A stretch of 11,953 nucleotides of DNA from an uncultured Clostridia bacterium (lineage in GTDB: Bacteria > Bacillota > Clostridia > Oscillospirales > Acutalibacteraceae), in the NCBI GenBank assembly GCA_958445555.1, contig CAUCSW010000008.1:1-11953 (forward strand). The letters are read 5' to 3'. Of this stretch, positions 2,353 to 11,953 are shown piece after piece. A program made the position numbers and the translations under genes. The notes beneath the pieces are model-generated. The model did not search any database. It had not been told where the DNA came from and saw only the letters and a program-made list of their open reading frames with translations. Within the stretch, counting starts at the first letter, position 1, and each line of letters begins with the position of its first letter.

Positions 2353-2901
2353 TTATAAAATACTCTGCCAGAGTTTTATATCGGGGTTGGGGATCACGGA
2401 CGAATCAAGCAGCAAACCCTTATCGGCTGCCGTGGATTCCGCCTTTTCGATTGCCGCCTTAACTGCCGAGACAGATCCTGTGATCAAAAGGTATGATTTT
2501 CCGCACATACCTCTGCAAAGTCTCAGTTCAAGCAGATCGACAAGGCTGGTCTTTGCAGCCGTATCCGCCGCGACGACGGCACTCGCCGCAGAATATGTTT
2601 CAAGGACTCCGAGAGCCTCGGGATTCTCGGGTGCGACCGCACCGTATATTGCCGGAAAAATGGCATCGTGCGGGTTGCCGAGCACGAATGTGTCGACCAC
2701 CTTATCGCTTTTAAGCTTTGTCGCCGCTTCAACAGAAGCTTTGACCGCGCTTAGCTCGCCTGCGATAATAACTATGTATTTACCCGGACAGACGGTAGTG
2801 CTTTGAATAACCTCAACCTCTGCCGTTTTTATCATTGTATCGGCAGCGGCGATGCCCGAAGAAACGGTCATCAGCTCTACCATTCCGATAGCTTTATTCA
2901 T
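2353..2901 (-). CDS. pduT: PduT-like trimeric BMC shell protein (tandem BMC domains, Fe-S pore)
   Basis: A 182-residue protein with two BMC domains (about 4-88 and 96-178), which forms pseudohexameric trimers. The first domain carries TTVCPGKY with Cys38. PduT of Salmonella binds a [4Fe-4S] cluster at the trimer pore through Cys38, so this is probably a redox-active shell tile. The second domain has an extra pair, Cys129 and Cys133 (LRLCRGMCGKSY). Its ATG overlaps the TGA of the preceding PduS-like gene by one base (TGATG), so translation is probably coupled, which fits a PduS-PduT electron relay across the shell. The stop is followed after 16 bases by the regulator gene. Confidence in family and orientation is high; the cluster is inferred from the conserved cysteine. 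Confidence 0.92.
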   Translation of the reverse strand: MNKAIGMVELMTVSSGIAAADTMIKTAEVEVIQSTTVCPGKYIVIIAGELSAVKASVEAATKLKSDKVVDTFVLGNPHDAIFPAIYGAVAPENPEALGVLETYSAASAVVAADTAAKTSLVDLLELRLCRGMCGKSYLLITGSVSAVKAAIEKAESTAADKGLLLDSSVIPNPDIKLWQSIL

Positions 2902-4238
2902 CAGTCAAGCTCCTTTCGGCGGGTTACGATAACATACCTGTCGTTTACCTCGGTCACCGTTCCGTTTATTGACGAATGTATGGTGACAGACAACTTGCCT
3001 TCGGCGGCAGTGCCGATAACATCGCCTTTATTGACGGCGTCGCCCTGCTTGACTGCTGCCGAGGCAGGTACGCCTATATGCTGAGAAAGCATAATTTTGA
3101 CCTTGTCATATTCGATCTCGCGATCCACAAAGGGAGCGTCGACATTGTATTCCGCAAGGCCGAGTCTTTCAACCAGTCTTTCCACCGGTATCAGTCTGCC
3201 GCTTCTTTGTTCGCTCACGCCGTGCATGACCGCTTCAGGCGGGCGAACGCCGTTTTTACGAAGCTCTCCCCTGACCTTTCCTATAAGCATGGAGGGGCTG
3301 AGTCCCTGAAAACAGGAGAACATGGTGCACAGGTCGCATCCGCAGCAGAAGTTAGAGTTGAGAAAAGCTTCGCTGTCTGCGGTATTACCCGAGGCAAAGG
3401 CTCTCATAAGCCTTGCCGGATCAATGGGACTGCCGAGAAGATGGCGCGGGCAAAGGTCGGTGCAGTAATGGCACTGACAGCACGCAGCCATAACTCTGTG
3501 GACCGAAACGGTCGGTGCTTCGTTCTTTTTAGTGACGACATGATGATGGGCAGGCAGCACTATCACTGCATTGGAGGTCTTTGTTACCACATCGTTTTCA
3601 TTGACAAGCGGACCTGTCATCGGTCCACCGCCGACAAGTGCAAAGTCCTTCACCGTTGCTCCGCCTGCGGCCTTGATGACCTCCGCATATGTAACGCCGA
3701 GCGGCACTTTAAGTGTTACAGGTGCCTTGACCGCTCCGGTAACGGTTATATATTTTGAGCTGACGCCCTCACCCTTTATTGCGTGATAGGCATTAAACAT
3801 GGTTTCGACATTATAAACTATAACACCGACACTTATCGGTAATTTGCCGGCGCCGACGACGCGACCCGTCGTCTCATATATTGTAACGACCTCATCTCCC
3901 GACGGGTACGCCTCAGGGAGAAGTCCGATCCGTGCCTTCGGATGCGAAGGCAGCGCCGACTTCACCGCTTCCACAGCCTTTTTATAAGAAGGCTTGACCG
4001 CCACAATTATATTGTCGGCACCTACGGCTTCCGCCACGGTGTCAAGTGCCGTAAGGATCTCCTCCGTATGCAACGCAAGCAGCTGCCTGTGAAGTCTGAG
4101 CAAGGGCTCACACTCGGCGCAGTTGAGGATTATGGTATCGGCATTTTCATTAAGTTTTGCGTAGGACGGGAATCCGGCACCGCCTGCTCCGACTACGCCG
4201 CCGTCCCTCAACTTCTTTGAAAGTTCCGTTATATTCAT
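2901..4238 (-). CDS. pduS: PduS-like / RnfC-related flavo-iron-sulfur electron-transfer protein
   Basis: A 445-residue protein counted from ATG at 4238-4236; an in-frame TTG at 4247 would add three residues. The N-terminal part has the RnfC/NuoF-like FMN/NADH fold signature GAGGAGFPSY and LNCAECEP. A middle region carries two 4Fe-4S motifs: C-x2-C-x2-C-x3-C-P at about 253-264 (CCQCHYCTDLCP) and C-x2-C-x2-C-x4-C at about 298-309 (CCGCDLCTMFSC). The C-terminal domain resembles the RnfC barrel (VKQGDAVNKGDVIG). In Salmonella, PduS is a cobalamin reductase. No B12-dependent enzyme is visible here, so general NADH or electron exchange with the lumen through PduT is more likely. It starts within 6 bases of the EutN stop and overlaps PduT by one base, so the three are probably coupled. 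In the second cluster the usual CP is CF. Confidence 0.92.
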   Translation of the reverse strand: MNITELSKKLRDGGVVGAGGAGFPSYAKLNENADTIILNCAECEPLLRLHRQLLALHTEEILTALDTVAEAVGADNIIVAVKPSYKKAVEAVKSALPSHPKARIGLLPEAYPSGDEVVTIYETTGRVVGAGKLPISVGVIVYNVETMFNAYHAIKGEGVSSKYITVTGAVKAPVTLKVPLGVTYAEVIKAAGGATVKDFALVGGGPMTGPLVNENDVVTKTSNAVIVLPAHHHVVTKKNEAPTVSVHRVMAACCQCHYCTDLCPRHLLGSPIDPARLMRAFASGNTADSEAFLNSNFCCGCDLCTMFSCFQGLSPSMLIGKVRGELRKNGVRPPEAVMHGVSEQRSGRLIPVERLVERLGLAEYNVDAPFVDREIEYDKVKIMLSQHIGVPASAAVKQGDAVNKGDVIGTAAEGKLSVTIHSSINGTVTEVNDRYVIVTRRKELD

Positions 4239-4243
4239 CTTTA

Positions 4244-4528
4244 TCAATCATCCAAACCGATAGAATTATCAATTATTCCGACTATTGCGGCATCGACCGG
4301 AGCTTCTGCCATTCCGCAGCCGATTCGGGCTGCGCTTCCGGTCGCAACAAGTACCGTCTCTCCGATACCTGCGCCGACATTGTCGACCGCAATTATTTTC
4401 TCTTTGCCCATTTTGCATATAGGCTCAACAATCATAAACTTGCTGCCCAAAAGGCGCTCGTTCTTACGCGTGGCAACCACGCTTCCCACGACTTTACCGG
4501 CTATCATCTGTCGTTGTTCCTTTCGCAT
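4244..4528 (-). CDS. eutN: BMC pentamer vertex protein (EutN/CcmL family)
   Basis: A 94-residue protein of the EutN/CcmL family, which closes the twelve vertices of the shell as pentamers. Recognisable features are MIAGKVVGSVVATRKNERLLG at the start of the core, the conserved AVDNVGAGIGETVLVATGSAAR, and the closing VDAAIVGIID strand. The core aligns from Met8. The upstream ATG at 4528 has the better ribosome binding site (AGGTGA, 6 bases away), while the internal ATG at 4507 has only AAAGGA about 10 bases away, so I keep the longer form and flag both. It is the only pentamer gene in the window. It follows a gap with a hairpin and its own candidate promoter, which would let this low-copy component be made at a different level from the hexamers. 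Confidence 0.93.
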   Translation of the reverse strand: MRKEQRQMIAGKVVGSVVATRKNERLLGSKFMIVEPICKMGKEKIIAVDNVGAGIGETVLVATGSAARIGCGMAEAPVDAAIVGIIDNSIGLDD

Positions 4529-4755: not shown

Positions 4756-5034
4756 TTATTTAAGAGTAGGCAAAATCTTCTCGACATCTGCGTGAGGTCT
4801 GGGGATTACATGAACTGCAACCAGCTCGCCGAGCTTGGAAGCTGCGGAAGCGCCTGCTTCCGTTGCCGCCTTGACAGCGCCGACATCACCGCGAACCATA
4901 ACGGATACGAGTCCCGAACCGATCTTCTCGGTTCCGATAAGCTCAACATTAGCTGCCTTGCACATTGCATCGGCTGCCTCTATTGAAGCTACAAGTCCTC
5001 TGGTTTCAACCATTCCGAGTGCTTCGAGTGCCAT
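4756..5034 (-). CDS. BMC-H hexameric shell protein, copy 1 (PduA/EutM-like)
   Basis: A 92-residue single BMC-domain protein of canonical length, forming the flat hexamers of the shell facets. Features: [28 protein letters not shown] at the start, the pore loop EKIGSG (about residues 36-41), [17 protein letters not shown], and [14 protein letters not shown] near the end. The pore is the PduA type, expected to pass small polar metabolites such as 1,2-propanediol. It differs from each of the two sister copies (5114-5392 and 6180-6458) at only six residues. A strong AGGAGG site precedes the ATG. It is the last hexamer gene of the shell cluster; a 227-base gap with hairpins follows. Confidence 0.96.
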
Positions 5035-5113: not shown

Positions 5114-5392
5114 TTATTTCAGAACGGGAAGGATCTTTTCAACATCCGCATGTGGTCTGGGGATCACATGGACCGCAACAAGCTCACCAAGCTTGGAAGC
5201 AGCCGCTGCGCCCGCCTCAGTGGCAGATTTGACCGCGCCGACATCGCCGCGGACCATAACGGATACGAGTCCCGAACCGATCTTCTCGGTTCCTACGAGT
5301 TCGACATTGGCTGCCTTGCACATTGCGTCGGCTGCCTCTATGGATGCTACAAGACCTCTTGTTTCTATCATTCCGAGTGCTTCAAATGCCAT
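5114..5392 (-). CDS. Internal-start short isoform: canonical BMC-H, copy 2
   Basis: In-frame product of the second start in the long shell gene: 92 residues with the same length, pore loop (EKIGSG) and C-terminus ([10 protein letters not shown]) as the other hexamer copies. It differs from copy 1 at six positions (for example Phe3, Ile8, Ser56, Val90). The evidence for separate translation is GGAGG at 5405-5401 with an 8-base A-rich spacer before the ATG at 5392. This is as good as the sites of the stand-alone copies, and nothing else in the frame needs it. It would give plain hexamer subunits able to co-assemble with the extended form. Confidence 0.7.
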
Positions 5393-5791
5393 TTTTTTAA
5401 CCTCCGTGTTTTTCTGTGATACCGCCGTTTTTGCCTCGGCCGCTCCGACGGCCTTTTGTTGTTCGACTTCGGGCTTGGATACTTCAGTCTCCGCCTTATC
5501 GATTTGCTTTGCATCCGAATCAGACGCCTTCACTGCCGATTCAGCTTTTATAATGCTCCTCTCGGCTCTGTTCGGCTGCACCGCCGAATTCTCATCCAAC
5601 TTCATCTCGCCGAGATTTTTCTCATCAAGTCTCTTCTCGCCGGACCTCTTTTCGGCAGACTCTTTTGCGTCGAACTTATTTCCGTCGAATTTCTTCTCGG
5701 CGGGTCTCTTATCGTCCTTACCCTTTTCGACGGGCTTCTTTTCGCCGGGCTTTACATCTTTACGCGACATAAATACGCCGTTTTCCGACAT
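5114..5791 (-). CDS. BMC-H shell protein with long charged N-terminal extension (probable dual-start gene)
   Basis: The full 225-residue product has a hydrophilic, Lys/Glu/Asp-rich, Gly-poor extension (1-133) with no recognisable fold, then a complete 92-residue hexamer domain (134-225) nearly identical to the two sister shell proteins. Residues 16-70 run in a five-residue repeat ([25 protein letters not shown] and so on). The ATG at 5791 has GAGGTGA 6 bases upstream. An internal ATG at 5392 (Met134, MAFEALGM) has its own GGAGG at 5405-5401, 8 bases away, exactly where a normal hexamer gene would start. Both forms are therefore likely made, like PduB/PduB' or the carboxysome CcmM forms. The extension could face the lumen or cytosol and bind cargo, other shells or a filament; this is inference. 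It lies 12 bases after the 118-residue shell gene. Confidence 0.9.
5582..5746 (-). repeat. Degenerate 15-base / pentapeptide repeat in the shell protein extension
   Basis: Codons 16-70 of the long shell protein read as eleven consecutive five-residue units in one register: [55 protein letters not shown]. The rough consensus is [GAD]-E-K-[KR]-x. At DNA level this is a decayed 15-base tandem repeat. It implies growth of the extension by slippage or unequal exchange. Confidence 0.75.
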
Positions 5792-5803
5792 TCGGTATCA
5801 CCT

Positions 5804-6160
5804 CTATACTTCACTTATGTACCCCTCGTCGGTCTCCGCATTCGCGGTCGACTCCGGCTTTTTCTGCCCATTTTCGGACTTGTTTTTGAGGCGAGATGCG
5901 CTCAGAGCAACCAATCTCAGCACCTCGGGGTGCGGATTGGCGATCACCGAATATGCAGCAGGCTTTATTATTCCGCCTCTTACGGCATTTTCAACTGCGG
6001 CGGTGACTGCGGAAACCTGACCTTCAACAATTATCGTAACAAGTCTGCCTCCGAGCTTACGCTCCCAGCTTACAAAACTGACATCGGCGGATTTACACAT
6101 TATGTCCAGACAGTCTACCGCGCCGGTAACACTCTGGACTTCGACAAATCCCAAAGACAT
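5804..6160 (-). CDS. BMC-H-type shell protein with charged C-terminal tail
   Basis: A 118-residue protein with one BMC domain (about 1-88), starting MSLGFVEVQSVTGAVDCLDIMC and ending its core near SVIANPHPEVLRLV. The pore segment reads SWERKLGGRLVT, so the common KIGSG is replaced by KLGGR. This puts an Arg next to the expected pore and would change charge and permeability. Residues 89-118 form a hydrophilic tail (NKSENGQKKPESTANAETDEG) with no cysteines, unlike the Fe-S tail of PduK. A GGAG site lies 9 bases before the ATG. It is 19 bases after hexamer copy 3 and 12 before the long-extension gene. It is a divergent facet subunit; the exact subgroup is unknown. Confidence 0.9.
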   Translation of the reverse strand: MSLGFVEVQSVTGAVDCLDIMCKSADVSFVSWERKLGGRLVTIIVEGQVSAVTAAVENAVRGGIIKPAAYSVIANPHPEVLRLVALSASRLKNKSENGQKKPESTANAETDEGYISEV

Positions 6161-6179: not shown

Positions 6180-6458
6180 TTATTTCAGAACGGGAAGGAT
6201 CTTCTCAACATCCGAATGAGGTCTCGGAATTACATGGACGGCAACAAGCTCGCCAAGCTTGGATGCAGCTGCCGCACCTGCCTCTGTAGCGGCCTTTACC
6301 GCTCCGACATCGCCGCGCACCATAACGGATACGAGTCCGGAACCTATCTTCTCGGTTCCCACAAGTTCAACATTGGCTGCCTTGCACATTGCATCGGCTG
6401 CTTCGATATTTGCTACGAGTCCTCTGGTCTCTACCATTCCCAAAGCTTCAAGTGACAT
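6180..6458 (-). CDS. BMC-H hexameric shell protein, copy 3 (PduA/EutM-like)
   Basis: A 92-residue canonical hexamer subunit. The start [22 protein letters not shown], the pore loop EKIGSG and the end [13 protein letters not shown] match the two downstream copies, with six differences from each (for example Ser2, Asn17 and Ser82). GGAGGAATTCATT precedes the ATG, a strong ribosome binding site. It sits 24 bases after the 104-residue shell gene and 19 before the 118-residue one. As a close paralogue it should co-assemble with copies 1 and 2; why three nearly equal copies are kept is unclear, but dosage is the simplest reason. Confidence 0.96.
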
Positions 6459-6482: not shown

Positions 6483-6797
6483 TTATTTTTTATCAAACGC
6501 ATTAAGTTTTAACATTTTCTCTGTACCGGGCTCCGTGTTGGCAATAATATGTGTGCTCACAACGCCCGACACCCTGTTTGCGGCATCCTTAGCCGCCTCG
6601 ATCGCCGCCGTGACCGCATCCACGCTTCCGCGGAATTTGATGCACACAATAAGCGGCACGGGAAGCGAATCGGGATTTCCCGGCTTGTTTTTATCGAAGT
6701 TTTCAACGGTAACATCCGCCGCCTTGCAACCCGCATCACAAGCGGTAAACGCCGCGGCAAGTCCGTAGACCTCGATAAATCCTGTTGCCATTCCCAT
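6483..6797 (-). CDS. Divergent BMC-H shell protein with enlarged pore loop
   Basis: A 104-residue single BMC-domain protein. The fold is clear from ATGFIEVYGLAAAFTACDAGCKAADV at the start, FRGSVDAVTAAIEAAKDAA in the middle and STHIIANTEPGTEKML at the end. Between the first helix and the central strand the usual short EKIGSG pore loop is replaced by a longer segment, about residues 33-48 (NFDKNKPGNPDSLPVP), rich in Pro and Asn. The pore is therefore probably different in shape. Cysteines occur at 20, 24 and 52, which leaves open a metal or cluster site like those of GrpU-type shells, though I see no diagnostic motif. GGAGG lies 7 bases before the ATG. It directly follows the alcohol dehydrogenase gene by 14 bases and opens the shell cluster. 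Confidence 0.9.
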   Translation of the reverse strand: MGMATGFIEVYGLAAAFTACDAGCKAADVTVENFDKNKPGNPDSLPVPLIVCIKFRGSVDAVTAAIEAAKDAANRVSGVVSTHIIANTEPGTEKMLKLNAFDKK

Positions 6798-6811: not shown

Positions 6812-8023
6812 TTATTTATTGACTATTGCGATCTTTAAGCCCTGCATTGAAAGGTTGGTCTTCAGTGCTTCGTTGATCTCCTCAAGCGGGAACTTGTGGG
6901 TTATGAGCTTTTCGATCGGCAGACCGATCGCTTTTGCTCTCTTAAGGAAATCGAAGGTGGTCGCATAGTCTCTGAGGGTATATACCCAAGAGCCGACAAC
7001 TGTAATTTCCTTCGCGCACATATCAAAGTGCGGGTTGATCGTTGCGTCTCCGCCGTTTATAAAGAAGCCGAGCTCGCAAAGTCCGCCGCCGTTTCTTATA
7101 AACTTATAGATATTTGAGTGCGCGACGGGCGAACCGGTGCACTGGAAAGCAAAATCGGCAAGATATCCGCCGAATGCATTCTTTACACCCTCGGTAAGTG
7201 CGTCAAGACCCTGATAATCCTTAAAGTTTACGGTGGCATTAGCGCCCATCTTCTTGGCAAATTCCAGTCTCTGGGCATTGCCGTCGACCGCGACGATGTT
7301 TTCAACACCCATCGCGCGGAGGACCGCTATGCACAAAAGTCCTATCGGACCGCATCCCTGAACCGCCACCCTGCTGTTGAAGCGGAGAATACCCACGGTC
7401 TTTGCGCGCTCTACCGCGTGAACAAGCACCGCAGAGGGTTCTATAAGGATACGGGAATCAAGATCGAGATCGCTTACATTGAAGATCGTTGAACCTTCAC
7501 GAACGAATATGTAGTCGGAGAACCATCCGTTGAGATGGATATCGTCATCGGGCAGAAGTCCGTAAACATCCGCTCCACCGACATTCTGCTTGTTGAGATC
7601 GAACATTGTGATGTCCGGATTGTCCTTGAATATCATACAGGTGACGACCTTGTCTCCTATATGAAGGGGCTTGCCGGCACTGTCCTTGGTCACATTCTTG
7701 CCCATGGCGACTATCTCGCCGGTGCCCTCGTGTCCGAGTGCGACCGGGATGAGTCCGAACGGATCGCGCTTAAACTCATGGGCATCGGTTCCGCAGACTC
7801 CGCAGCCTTCGACCTTTACAAGGATATCGCCGTCCCCGAGTTTGGGTATCGGATATTCCTTGACATCAAAGTGCTCAGGGGATGTCAGGACCGCGACATG
7901 TGCCTTTTCGGGAATGCCTCCGACCGATCCTTGTGCGGCAGAAGGTGCAGCCGCTGCGCCGCCGTTCATTGAACTGATGACCTTTTTGACGATCTGTTCA
8001 ATATCATTGGTATTGATTTCCAT
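6812..8023 (-). CDS. Zinc-type (MDR) alcohol dehydrogenase with N-terminal encapsulation peptide
   Basis: A 403-residue medium-chain dehydrogenase/reductase. Residues 1-20 (MEINTNDIEQIVKKVISSMN) form an amphipathic targeting helix very like that of the aldehyde dehydrogenase, joined by an Ala/Gly/Pro linker (21-38). Catalytic zinc ligands are Cys77 (in EGCGVCGTDAHE) and His98-Glu99 (GHEGTGEI). The NAD(P) Rossmann motif is GCGPIG at 223-228, with Asp247 after the second strand favouring NAD. The four cysteines of the usual structural zinc lobe are missing; only Cys129 lies there. In this pathway it would reduce propionaldehyde to 1-propanol and recycle NADH inside the shell, though lactaldehyde reduction cannot be excluded. 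AGGA lies 5 bases before the ATG, and the gene follows the GlcG-like gene by 14 bases. Confidence 0.92.
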   Translation of the reverse strand: MEINTNDIEQIVKKVISSMNGGAAAAPSAAQGSVGGIPEKAHVAVLTSPEHFDVKEYPIPKLGDGDILVKVEGCGVCGTDAHEFKRDPFGLIPVALGHEGTGEIVAMGKNVTKDSAGKPLHIGDKVVTCMIFKDNPDITMFDLNKQNVGGADVYGLLPDDDIHLNGWFSDYIFVREGSTIFNVSDLDLDSRILIEPSAVLVHAVERAKTVGILRFNSRVAVQGCGPIGLLCIAVLRAMGVENIVAVDGNAQRLEFAKKMGANATVNFKDYQGLDALTEGVKNAFGGYLADFAFQCTGSPVAHSNIYKFIRNGGGLCELGFFINGGDATINPHFDMCAKEITVVGSWVYTLRDYATTFDFLKRAKAIGLPIEKLITHKFPLEEINEALKTNLSMQGLKIAIVNK

Positions 8024-8535: not shown

Positions 8536-9339
8536 TTATTTACCGAGCTGAGCAAGAACCTTCTTGGTGATCTCGGCTATAAGATCCTCACTTGACGAAC
8601 CGCAGCCGCCGTTTCCGCCGCAGCCTCCGCAGCCGTGGCAGCTGGGCTTGCCTTCCTTGACATTCGGGCAGAGGTCGGCAGGATGCTTACCCTTGAGACC
8701 AAACTTACGACGAATCTCATAAAGTTTTTCGACCTGCGACTTTGAAAGCTCCTTGGGTCCGCCGAGCATCTTGGAGAGATAAAGAAGCTTTGCATAGAAC
8801 TCAACCGACTCCATCTTATGGTAAGCATTCAGAAGAGAATCGGAATATGTAAGAGCACCGTGATTCTCAAGAAGTACCGCATCAAAATGCTGGAGGTATT
8901 TCTCGACCGCATCGGGTATCTCATCGGTAGAAGGTGTGCCGTATTCGGCTATCGGAACGCATCCGAGAGCAATAACAGCCTCGGGCATGATCGGCTGGGT
9001 AAGCGGAATTCCCGCAATGGCAAAGCTTGTGGCATAAACGGGATGTGCATGAACAACCGAATTAACATCGGGTCTCTGCTTATAAACTCTCATATGCATC
9101 TTGATCTCAGAGGAGGGCTTAAATCCGGGATTTGCCTGGATCACCTTACCGTCGGCGTCGACCTTGCATATGTACTCGGGGGTCATAAAGCCCTTGCTCA
9201 CACCGGTAGGGGTGCAAAGAAACTCATGATCGTTGAGCTTTACGGAGATGTTGCCGTCGTTTGCCGCAACCATTCCCTGACCGTAGATGCGCTTACCGAT
9301 GTCACAGATTTGTTTTTTGATCTCGTACTCTGATGCCAT
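8536..9339 (-). CDS. Class II aldolase (fuculose/rhamnulose-1-phosphate type) with C-terminal encapsulation peptide
   Basis: A 267-residue protein whose first 220 residues are a full aldolase II/adducin domain (FucA-like). Visible: AANDGNISVK (25-34), TPTGVSKG (43-50), PSSEIKMHM with Glu78 as the likely acid/base, zinc ligands His97 and His99 (HAHPVYATSFA), and His160 (LLENHGAL). It would split fuculose-1-P or rhamnulose-1-P to DHAP and L-lactaldehyde, the precursor of 1,2-propanediol. A linker (224-250) holds five cysteines in a Gly-rich setting (CHGCGGCGGNGGCG), followed by an amphipathic targeting helix, residues 251-267 (EDLIAEITKKVLAQLGK). This tail is typical of aldolases of fucose/rhamnose microcompartments. 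It is the first gene after the promoter at 9377-9405, with AAAGGAG 9 bases before the ATG. Fuculose versus rhamnulose substrate is undecided. Confidence 0.92.
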   Translation of the reverse strand: MASEYEIKKQICDIGKRIYGQGMVAANDGNISVKLNDHEFLCTPTGVSKGFMTPEYICKVDADGKVIQANPGFKPSSEIKMHMRVYKQRPDVNSVVHAHPVYATSFAIAGIPLTQPIMPEAVIALGCVPIAEYGTPSTDEIPDAVEKYLQHFDAVLLENHGALTYSDSLLNAYHKMESVEFYAKLLYLSKMLGGPKELSKSQVEKLYEIRRKFGLKGKHPADLCPNVKEGKPSCHGCGGCGGNGGCGSSSEDLIAEITKKVLAQLGK

Positions 9340-10325: not shown

Positions 10326-11114
10326 TCATCCCCCTATCACGCATATGAGTCCTGACTGTTCTGCGACCCTTTTGAGTATTTGCATCTTCTCATCGGTCGG
10401 CGGAGTTATATGACCCATTTCGTAATTCCTTCCGAGACCGGCGTATTTGTCCTGTCCGAGTCTGTGATACGGAAGAAGATGTATTTTTGTTACATTTTTA
10501 AGACCCGCCGCAAAACGGGCTATCTCTTCGATCTCCTCGGGAGTATCGTTAAATGTCGGTATGACCGGCACCCGTATGACCATATCTGCGGCATTCTCGG
10601 CAACGATCGCCGCATTTTGCAGGATCATCGCATTGTCTCTGCCCGTGAAGGCTTTGTGCTTTTCGGGGTTCATATGCTTTATATCCATAAGGTAATCATC
10701 GATATAAGGCAGTATCTTAAGTATCGTTGCGGCGGGCGCGCAGCTCGTGGTCTCGATTGCCGTATTTATTCCCTTTTCCTTGGCACCTTTAAACAAGGCG
10801 AGTGCAAAATCGGGCTGACAGAAGGTCTCACCGCCCGAGAGTGTCATCCCCCCGCCGCTGCGGCGATAGTATATCCTGTCCTTTTCAACCGTCTCAAGAA
10901 CCTTTGCGGCGGTAATGTCTTCGCCCACGGTTTTTGTCACTCCGCCGATTGTAAGCTCCTCGGTTTTATAATTCTGAGATTCGGGATTGCAGCACCATCT
11001 GCACCTCAGCACGCAGCCTTTTAAGAATACTATCGTTCGTATTCCCGGACCGTCGTGGACGCTGAAGCGCTGAATGTCAAATATGCGCCCGGTCGTATCA
11101 AGATAATCATTCAT
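10326..11114 (-). CDS. Glycyl radical enzyme activase (radical SAM, PflA-like)
   Basis: A 262-residue radical SAM protein that installs the glycyl radical on the enzyme encoded just upstream. It starts with GRIFDIQRFSVHDGPGIRTIVFLKGC. The cluster motif C-x3-C-x2-C is Cys34, Cys38, Cys41 (GCVLRCRWC), and the SAM-binding TLSGGE is at 91-96. The later motifs YLMDIKHMNPEKH, RVPVIPTFNDT and LLPYHRLGQDKY are also typical. Many activases of dehydratase-type radical enzymes are near 300 residues, with a cysteine-rich ferredoxin-like insert after the first motif. Here that segment is short and has no further cysteine set, so the protein is closer to PflA in build. AGGAA precedes the ATG by 8 bases but can fold into a small hairpin. 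Its stop overlaps the region of the EutS start. Confidence 0.94.
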   Translation of the reverse strand: MNDYLDTTGRIFDIQRFSVHDGPGIRTIVFLKGCVLRCRWCCNPESQNYKTEELTIGGVTKTVGEDITAAKVLETVEKDRIYYRRSGGGMTLSGGETFCQPDFALALFKGAKEKGINTAIETTSCAPAATILKILPYIDDYLMDIKHMNPEKHKAFTGRDNAMILQNAAIVAENAADMVIRVPVIPTFNDTPEEIEEIARFAAGLKNVTKIHLLPYHRLGQDKYAGLGRNYEMGHITPPTDEKMQILKRVAEQSGLICVIGG

Positions 11115-11201: not shown

Positions 11202-11243
11202 GAACCGAACGGTCATGCTGTCAGTAACCGCGCTGTTCGGTTC
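11202..11243 (-). other. Stem-loop across the stop codon of the glycyl radical enzyme gene
   Basis: GAACCGAAC at 11202-11210 and GTTCGGTTC at 11235-11243 are perfect inverted repeats (9 pairs) with a 24-base loop that holds the TGA stop and a further possible 3-pair extension (GGT/ACC). No U tract follows. It may protect the 3' end of the abundant enzyme mRNA or lower flow into the activase gene 106 bases downstream. The fold was found by eye. Confidence 0.4.
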
Positions 11244-11953
11244 TTCTTATTATATCATCCTGCAAAGAGCGGGAAAGTGTTGTAAACAATGCGGAATACC
11301 CTGCCACGCGCACAACAAGCGACTTGTATCTTTCGGGGTGCTTCTGAGCGTCGAGAAGGGTCTCTCTGTCGACAACATTGAACTGCATATGACTGCCCTT
11401 CTGATCAAAATATCCCCTTACGAGCGCCACAAAGCTTTCAAGACCGCTTTCGCCTTTAAGTGCCGAAGGATGGAATTTCATATTGAACAGGGTCCCGTGT
11501 GAGGCAATGTAGTGATCCAGCTTGGAGACCGAGTTGCAGGATGCGGTCGGACCGTGAGTGTCTCTTCCCGCCGCAGGCGAAACGCCGTCGGCAACCGGTG
11601 TGCCTGCAAGGCGCCCGTCCGGAGTGGCGCCGGTCTGCGCGCCGAGAGGAACATTTGCAGAGACCGGGTAAAGTCCCGCCTGGAACATACCCCCGCGCGG
11701 ATTGCGGTATTTTTCGAGAGGCCTTGTATAGAAATACGCAGCTTCCCTTGCAAAGTAGTCCACCTCGGGGACATCGTTTCCAAACTTGTCCAAAGCCTCG
11801 ATATCCTTTTTAAGCCTGTCGTAAAGTGCTTTTTTCTCGGGCTCGGTCGGATTCTTTCCCACGCTCTCGCATATAGCCCTTATCTCATCGACACTGCAGA
11901 TCTTACCTTTATTAGCAAGCTCCTTTACTATCAAAGCGCATATTCTCTCGGTT
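11221..11953 (-). CDS. Glycyl radical enzyme, C-terminal part (propanediol/glycerol dehydratase type)
   Basis: The last 243 or so residues are present; the frame stays open to the right edge (TERICALIVKELANKG), so an apparent start near 11934 is not real. The glycyl radical motif RVAGYSALF is intact; its Gly is codon 11299-11301, 26 residues from the end, with the usual LQDDIIRRTEQ after it. Upstream lie NPRGGMFQAGLYPVSANVPLG, GATPDGRLAGTPVADGVSP and DTHGPTASCNSVSKLDH, typical of dehydratase-type members. With an aldolase and PduP-like enzyme in the locus, 1,2-propanediol dehydratase is the best guess. The other part with the catalytic Cys and Glu, and any targeting helix, is outside the window. 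Choline lyase is less likely because the local genes are sugar-related. Confidence 0.93.
   Translation of the reverse strand, partial: TERICALIVKELANKGKICSVDEIRAICESVGKNPTEPEKKALYDRLKKDIEALDKFGNDVPEVDYFAREAAYFYTRPLEKYRNPRGGMFQAGLYPVSANVPLGAQTGATPDGRLAGTPVADGVSPAAGRDTHGPTASCNSVSKLDHYIASHGTLFNMKFHPSALKGESGLESFVALVRGYFDQKGSHMQFNVVDRETLLDAQKHPERYKSLVVRVAGYSALFTTLSRSLQDDIIRRTEQRGY

Follow-up and report, generated by a model that had tools for sequence, protein, structure and literature searches.

A gene for a canonical hexameric shell protein (BMC-H), found on the minus strand of an 11,953-nucleotide stretch from an uncultured Clostridia bacterium (hereafter the window, meaning the whole of that stretch), is predicted to encode two proteins in one reading frame, a plain hexamer subunit and the same subunit with a long charged N-terminal tail. 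From the conservation of its internal start in related loci, the dual start as a conserved gene design is close to certain. What the tail does is a matter of analogy with known shell proteins, of which PduK offers the closest guide.

The gene, its locus and its relatives

The gene (5114..5791, minus strand) is an open reading frame with an ATG start, and its long product has 225 amino acids. The 133-residue N-terminal extension (5393..5791, minus strand) has a motif-bearing start, continues as low-complexity charged sequence (44% K/R/D/E) and is cysteine-free; to the eye it resembles degenerate repeats of the (A/G)-E-K-(K/R)-x-(D/E) kind. PF00936, the sole Pfam family reported, matches residues 138-213 only, in one stretch (E 4e-29), which makes the window protein a canonical BMC-H with one domain. 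A second ATG, codon 134, at 5392-5390, begins a short form of 92 amino acids (5114..5392, minus strand), a plain canonical BMC-H by PF00936, which contains KAAN and PRPH and is identical to each of two neighbouring plain hexamers at 87 of 93 aligned positions (stop included). In the extension region there is no stop in the coding frame, as compared to four and 12 in the other two frames of the same strand.

Each ATG is preceded by a Shine-Dalgarno sequence (SD). GAGGTGA (5798..5804, minus strand) lies 6 nt upstream of the first ATG (5791), and its first G is the final base of the TAG stop codon of the upstream K-like gene (5806-5804). The internal GGAGGT (5400..5405, minus strand) lies within coding sequence, where the codons ahead of the ATG read T-E-V-K-K; counted as GGAGG (5405-5401) it is 8 nt, and as GGAGGT (5405-5400) 7 nt, before the ATG at 5392. 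The initial annotation had described a 133-residue charged extension and a full hexamer domain in one frame, with GAGGTGA before the ATG at 5791 and GGAGG at 5405-5401 before that at 5392; the frame (5791-5114, with PF00936 at 138-213) and the coordinates of both SDs were confirmed, and the masses of about 25 and 9 kDa given there are the right size for 225 and 92 residues.

The K-like gene (5804..6160, minus strand), whose stop lies 12 nt before the long start, encodes a BMC-H of 118 amino acids with a 28-residue charged C-terminal tail. On the same strand, BMC domain matches identify two plain canonical BMC-H paralogues of 92 amino acids each (6180..6458 and 4756..5034) and another BMC-H of 104 amino acids (6483..6797), and a family match identifies a BMC-P, the EutN/CcmL vertex pentamer (4244..4528). 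Two more minus-strand genes, one with RnfC-type family matches (2901..4247) and the other a BMC-T with two BMC stretches (2353..2901), we take to be PduS-like and PduT-like, respectively, from the locus type and general knowledge, there being no model specific for PduS or PduT behind the names. Family matches on the minus strand further identify a class II aldolase of the fuculose-phosphate type (8536..9339), which served as the sampling marker, a glycyl-radical-enzyme activating protein (10326..11114) and the C-terminal part of a glycyl radical enzyme, cut by the end of the window (11221..11934); an alcohol dehydrogenase of the lactaldehyde reductase type (6812..8023) was also recognised by family match, and there is a DeoR-type regulator.

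By its predicted gene content the locus is of the GRM5 type (glycyl-radical, fucose/rhamnose). The GRM5 enzyme set of glycyl radical enzyme, activating enzyme, class II aldolase and alcohol dehydrogenase-type enzyme is present together (substrates predicted), and homologues of PduS and PduT, which define GRM5 (PMC6325248; this and the other papers given by accession are cited from extracts), lie at 2901-4247 and 2353-2901. Neither an aldehyde dehydrogenase nor a phosphotransacylase was found in the window; two related loci (L003 and L036) have open reading frames that look like these by eye, downstream of DeoR or AckA, a position that would fall past the low end of the window.

Several features of neighbouring and matching proteins may be recorded here. 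The aldolase (8536-9339) has a Cys/Gly-rich stretch before its C-terminal helix, with Cys 224, 234, 237 and 240 invariant in 24 aligned sequences (window included), possibly a metal or Fe-S site just ahead of a putative encapsulation peptide. In the alcohol dehydrogenase (6812-8023) about 40 residues precede the family matches, an amphipathic-looking start followed by an Ala/Gly linker, like an encapsulation peptide. The best protein matches (P0002-P0020) each have either several BMC domains or a K-like domain fused in; that the window protein is a tandem or fusion of this kind was rejected, since it has one BMC domain. Seven relatives (P0018, P0019, P0020, P0023, P0036, P0046 and P0048) join a K-like domain and a canonical hexamer in one protein; the linkers KEEKIM (P0018) and KEERRM (P0036) resemble, at the protein level, an internal SD read as protein, and P0048 has no linker. 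In P0077 and P0108 a BMC-H resembling by eye the 104-residue type of the window is fused to a canonical hexamer.

Relatives of the locus were chosen by an alignment search of genome contigs with the aldolase and not by the hexamer gene. The search gave at least 593 stretches and at least 579 relatives, of which the best 80 were taken as loci; this sample is biased toward close relatives of the window's aldolase, and the extension played no part in the choice. Canonical BMC-H genes numbered 165 in 74 sources (73 of the best 80 loci and the window), and 46 of them, each from a different source, had an open ATG extension of at least 15 amino acids. Three of the 46 were left out as spurious: in L055 the 95 codons run across the K-like gene in another frame, in L066 the extension of 19 amino acids belongs to another hexamer of the array and has a poor SD, and in L074 that of 17 amino acids belongs to the third hexamer. 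There remained 43 genes (42 loci and the window), and among the 122 genes not counted as extended just these three have such an open extension. With three further loci cut by a contig end (L005, L006 and L023), in each of which the extended hexamer follows a K-like gene and of which L005 and L023 retain the internal ATG and its SD, the final tally is 45 extended and 26 plain among the 71 scorable loci of the best 80, or 46 of 72 sources extended when the window is included; nine of the 80 were unscored, their hexamer array being missing or cut. For two loci scored plain (L018 and L030) the available DNA has neither a K-like nor a glycyl radical enzyme gene, and they could belong to a different locus type. 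Close homologues without the extension, which the initial annotation had named as speaking against its proposal, are thus the smaller part (26 of 71). In the 43 genes the extension is 25-133 amino acids long (median 36), the window's being the longest; judged by the recognised genes, the extended hexamer comes right after the K-like gene in 32 and after another canonical hexamer in 11.

For an enlarged set, 397 genomes of the family of a Faecalicatena contorta genome were searched, of which 112 had a match at E 1e-30, and 78 neighbourhoods of these 112 were read. The set comprises 84 loci in which the extension has 20 amino acids or more (42 of L001-L080, 26 of L082-L110 and 16 of L111-L158); it leaves out the window, L005, L006 and L023, and L081 was dropped as a copy of L067. 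An order-wide search with the protein P0072 gave a match at the cut-off in 33 of 396 genomes; the 30 loci obtained from it contained 56 hexamer genes, four of which had an extension of at least 12 amino acids, two of these in known genomes (L008 and L009). A protein search with the P0072 extension alone found 12 proteins, the query included.

Conservation of the internal start and of the extension

The internal ATG is kept in 83 of the 84 extended genes of the enlarged set. An SD of at least 6 nt precedes it in 80 of the 83 and one of at least 5 nt in all 83, as compared to 30 and 167, respectively, of 3131 control ATGs, internal and in frame, from 781 further genes in the 80 loci plus the window. 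This conservation (80/83 versus 30/3131) rules out a chance origin of the second start.

The choice among synonymous codons points the same way. Within the internal SD, lysine is encoded by AAG 73 times and never by AAA, versus 222:441 elsewhere in the extensions (p 2e-32), and glutamate by GAG 80 times and never by GAA, versus 99:290 elsewhere (p 3e-40); after dereplication (74 genes, 73 with the ATG) the p values are 2e-29 for Lys and 4e-35 for Glu. In the 46 genes of the aldolase sample, the spurious three included, AAG occurs 33 times at codon -5 and GAG 42 times at codon -4, AAA and GAA not once, the rest of the same extensions having AAG:AAA and GAG:GAA ratios of 92:212 and 32:147. Because the SD lies in the coding frame, the residues commonly found before the second methionine, K-E-(E/V)-K-(K/R), are the protein reading of an SD like AAGGAGGTAAAGAAA-ATG or AAGGAGGAAAAAAGA-ATG. 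By its codons, then, the internal SD is kept by selection. The earlier proposal of one BMC-H gene with two starts is supported by the conservation and by this selection on synonymous sites; dual initiation is strongly supported at the level of sequence, and very probably both starts are used somewhere in the family of extended hexamers.

An SD would also precede a plain gene, and the coding status of the extension therefore needs separate evidence. Related extensions were compared in 20 pairs, up to a point 18 nt ahead of the internal ATG; pooled pN was 0.22 and pooled pS 0.40 (ratio 0.54), pN being above pS in three of the pairs. For the hexamer domain pN was 0.010 and pS 0.31. All 21 gaps in nucleotide alignments of the extensions are multiples of three. 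Gap lengths and pN/pS together rule out a non-coding extension and mark it as translated sequence. There is no stop between the two starts, so that any ribosome initiating at the first ATG will, if it completes translation, necessarily make the fusion.

In what ratio the two forms are made can be estimated from the start sites. A simple calculation of the energy of pairing with the anti-SD favours the internal site in 36 of 43 genes (median -11.7 versus -7.4 kcal/mol) and the SD of the long form in seven; the values for the window are -10.2 (internal) and -7.1 kcal/mol (long). With this predominance of the internal SD (36 of the 43), mainly plain subunits with few tailed ones would be expected, and the minority of extended subunits suggested in the initial annotation is supported as an expectation. 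According to predicted local folding of 83 genes, the internal start is also more open (median unpaired 0.74 versus 0.52 over -15..+2). For the window this range gives similar values at both starts (0.53 and 0.47 unpaired); over -14..-7 its internal SD is fairly paired (0.25 unpaired) and its long SD open (0.58). An excess of the short form is thus predicted in general and is less certain for the window. The long start lies -14 to +50 nt from the stop of the K-like gene (median +5, n = 32), and the overlap of the long SD with this stop in the window would suit reinitiation.

The tail and its possible roles

The dereplicated extensions (n = 74) have a median of 83% disorder-promoting residues, and 59 of the 74 are net positive. 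A predicted model of the window protein, weak in itself (mean pLDDT 61.9, alignment of 18), has a pLDDT of about 40-57 over residues 1-130 and no structure over 1-116; in a fold search with this weak model the hexamer domain resembles PduA/EutM. A motif common to all extensions is not evident. Fifteen proteins, the window's included, begin with VFMS(K/R)xD(V/I)KP, followed by a variable linker. This motif was found in no other open reading frame above 60 codons of the window, nor in L001-L158, and was for that reason rejected as a tag common to other proteins; the order-wide search with P0072 (396 genomes) did not find its clade.

The N-terminus of PduA and of canonical BMC-H proteins is on the concave side, and in recombinant shells this side is turned to the cytoplasm (PMC6109187, PMC10902431), the orientation in native shells being ambiguous according to PMC6109187 itself; N-terminal fusions to PduA appear to be incorporated in shells (PMC6109187). 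With the N-terminus on a concave, putatively cytoplasmic face, an outside role of the tail is favoured and luminal cargo binding disfavoured; the roles put forward in the initial annotation, binding of cargo, clustering of compartments and crosslinking, are putative.

We therefore infer as first choice a role like that of PduK, ahead of a control of size and of a tether like PduB. Ribosomes that end translation of the K-like gene, or that bind the SD at its stop, would start at 5791 and make the tailed subunit, in which 133 disordered, charged residues precede the hexamer domain; ribosomes on the internal SD would start at 5392 and make the plain subunit, usually in excess. Plain and tailed subunits would mix in hexamers, also with the near-identical paralogues, mixing being likely because the short form is nearly identical to the neighbouring hexamers. 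On the concave, putatively cytoplasmic face the tails would act like the flexible C-terminal extension of PduK, keeping shells apart or anchoring them to other parts of the cell, with the effect that compartments spread out and aggregation is avoided, and the two SDs would set the dose of tails. In PduK the flexible extension was proposed to be on the outer concave face, and compartments of delta-pduK stay at the poles (PMC9132943); that the role of the PduK tail is a proposal of its authors weighs against the whole chain. To this chain, of a dual start plus a cytosol-facing disordered tail with a PduK-like role, we assign, by analogy, a probability of about 0.4. A tail that is no more than a brush is less easily reconciled with the VFMSxxDVKP motif, seen in close relatives of the window, than is one that binds a specific partner.

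More tentative is a self-dosed decorated shell, in which two ribosome sites would fix the ratio of plain to tailed subunits and a charged layer facing the cytoplasm would replace the functions of PduB and/or PduK, the tail being either on the N-terminus of the hexamer or on the C-terminus of the K-like protein. The K-like C-terminal tail is charged, extends 2-30 residues past an SAxR-type anchor and is shorter where the hexamer is extended (n = 35 extended versus 24 plain, p 1e-4): 27 sources are extended with a short K-like tail, eight, among them the window, extended with a long one, 19 plain with a long one and five plain with a short one. A check for kinship left four independent pairs on well supported branches, without significance, and kinship may explain the trade-off. 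Since 26 of 72 sources are plain, five of these with a short K-like tail, no tail is essential everywhere.

If the tail were inside the shell like the N-terminus of PduB, which joins core and shell (PMC12108088, PMC9132943), its end peptide (VFMSxxDVKP in the window's clade) could bind cargo and tie the shell to the core. The conserved N-terminal motif with a variable linker in this clade would agree with such a tether, and a PduB over the family cut-off is absent from 29 of 30 host genomes, mostly draft assemblies; in the single positive genome it lies on another contig than the GRM5 locus, and a PduB elsewhere in the host was on this search rejected. Against a tether speak weak partial matches to the PduB model below the cut-off in 21 of the other 29 genomes, which were taken for BMC-T paralogues such as PduT, the position of canonical BMC-H N-termini on the concave face, taken as outside, and the restriction of the motif to the window as compared with L001-L158, most extensions being without an evident common motif. 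We consider a luminal tail unlikely.

Elongated subunits might also act on the geometry of the shell, tailed mixed hexamers altering curvature and particle size. In GRM2, addition of the C-terminally elongated CmcE, or replacement of CmcC by the elongated mutant CmcC', led to large particles, and heterohexamers formed during translation were suggested by the authors (PMC6971018). The near identity of the short form with its neighbours makes mixing likely in the window too; the GRM2 precedent, however, is C-terminal, and the wide range of extension lengths (25-133 amino acids) suggests a loose constraint. An effect on geometry we likewise consider unlikely.

Doubtful to a higher degree is that the short form alone matters. 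The extension would then be a leader, translated either for coupling to the K-like gene or so that the internal SD stays unstructured, and the tailed product a tolerated by-product. The nearness of the long start to the K-like stop (median +5 nt), the usually weaker SD of the long form and the fast evolution of the extension would agree with this. Coupling needs no stop-free fusion in frame, yet every gap has a length divisible by three and pooled pN/pS stays below 1, and the extended frame stays open in two loci that lost the internal start. In L077 (13276) both the internal ATG and its SD are lost, and two plain hexamer genes follow; in L006 (after 9230) the extension enters the hexamer domain without a Met or a good SD, and the contig ends inside the domain. 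In the absence of the internal start only the long form is possible from the gene in L006 and L077, and the short form from the extended gene is therefore dispensable there. The two loci may be regarded as natural tests of this dispensability. An incidental internal SD with the long form as sole product, as life without the internal start in L006 and L077 might indicate, is very improbable in view of the synonymous codons at the SD (AAG 73:0, GAG 80:0) and of its frequency (at least 6 nt in 80/83 versus 30/3131 controls).

The make-up of a shell is usually attributed to separate genes. If both starts are used, the number of tail-bearing subunits would be fixed within one gene, by a conserved dual start in the principal type of shell tile. 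This would provide a natural, testable handle on the dispersal, sizing or content-tethering of microcompartments in gut bacteria with fucose/rhamnose loci, and a ready-made part for engineered shells on which tags are to be displayed in controlled number. A single annotated start per gene would then merge two products, and organelle proteomics may miss a shell form.

Comparison with known systems

PduB is a two-domain BMC-T, and CcmM, the short form of which comes from an internal start, is not a BMC-domain shell protein; the window gene, unlike PduB, encodes a single-domain canonical BMC-H. PduB, listed as BMC-T (PMC6384099, PMC10902431), and PduB' are long and short forms from overlapping genes, an N-terminal extension of 37 amino acids apart (PMC9132943), and the window gene is like them in having a predicted long and short form that differ by an N-terminal extension. 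The extension is 25-133 amino acids long in the aldolase sample versus 37 in PduB, and its N-terminus is expected on the face opposite to that of PduB. With CcmM58/CcmM35, two forms of one carboxysome protein (PMC10902431), the gene shares a long and a short form of one protein, in the window both predicted.

Extensions of BMC-H proteins of up to 200 residues have been described, most of them C-terminal (PMC8217296), and an SPU-type BMC-H has an N-terminal one (PMC9052549). In Cphy_1182 from the GRM5 locus of Clostridium phytofermentans the match to PduA is confined to residues 73-161 (PMC3557285), and an N-terminal extension of 72 amino acids is therefore implied. Like the window gene, Cphy_1182 follows a PduK-like gene in a fucose/rhamnose GRM locus (PMC3557285), the two being compared by description only; the extracts of that paper do not mention a second start for it. 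The initial annotation knew of no hexamer protein with such an extension. As to the extension itself this did not hold, an N-extended BMC-H protein being mentioned in PMC9052549 and another implied, for Cphy_1182, by PMC3557285; a second start is mentioned in the extracts of neither paper. A description of a dual-start BMC-H was not recognised among the papers listed from the open literature.

PduK likewise belongs to the BMC-H proteins, and its flexible extension has been proposed to point to the cytoplasm; the protein affects the positioning of compartments (PMC9132943). Its extension is C-terminal with a tetracysteine motif (PMC6325248), whereas that of the window protein is N-terminal, cysteine-free and followed by an internal start. 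CmcE of GRM2 is, like the tailed form, an elongated BMC-H, and it changes particle size when added (PMC6971018); unlike in the window gene, its elongation is C-terminal and comes from a separate gene.
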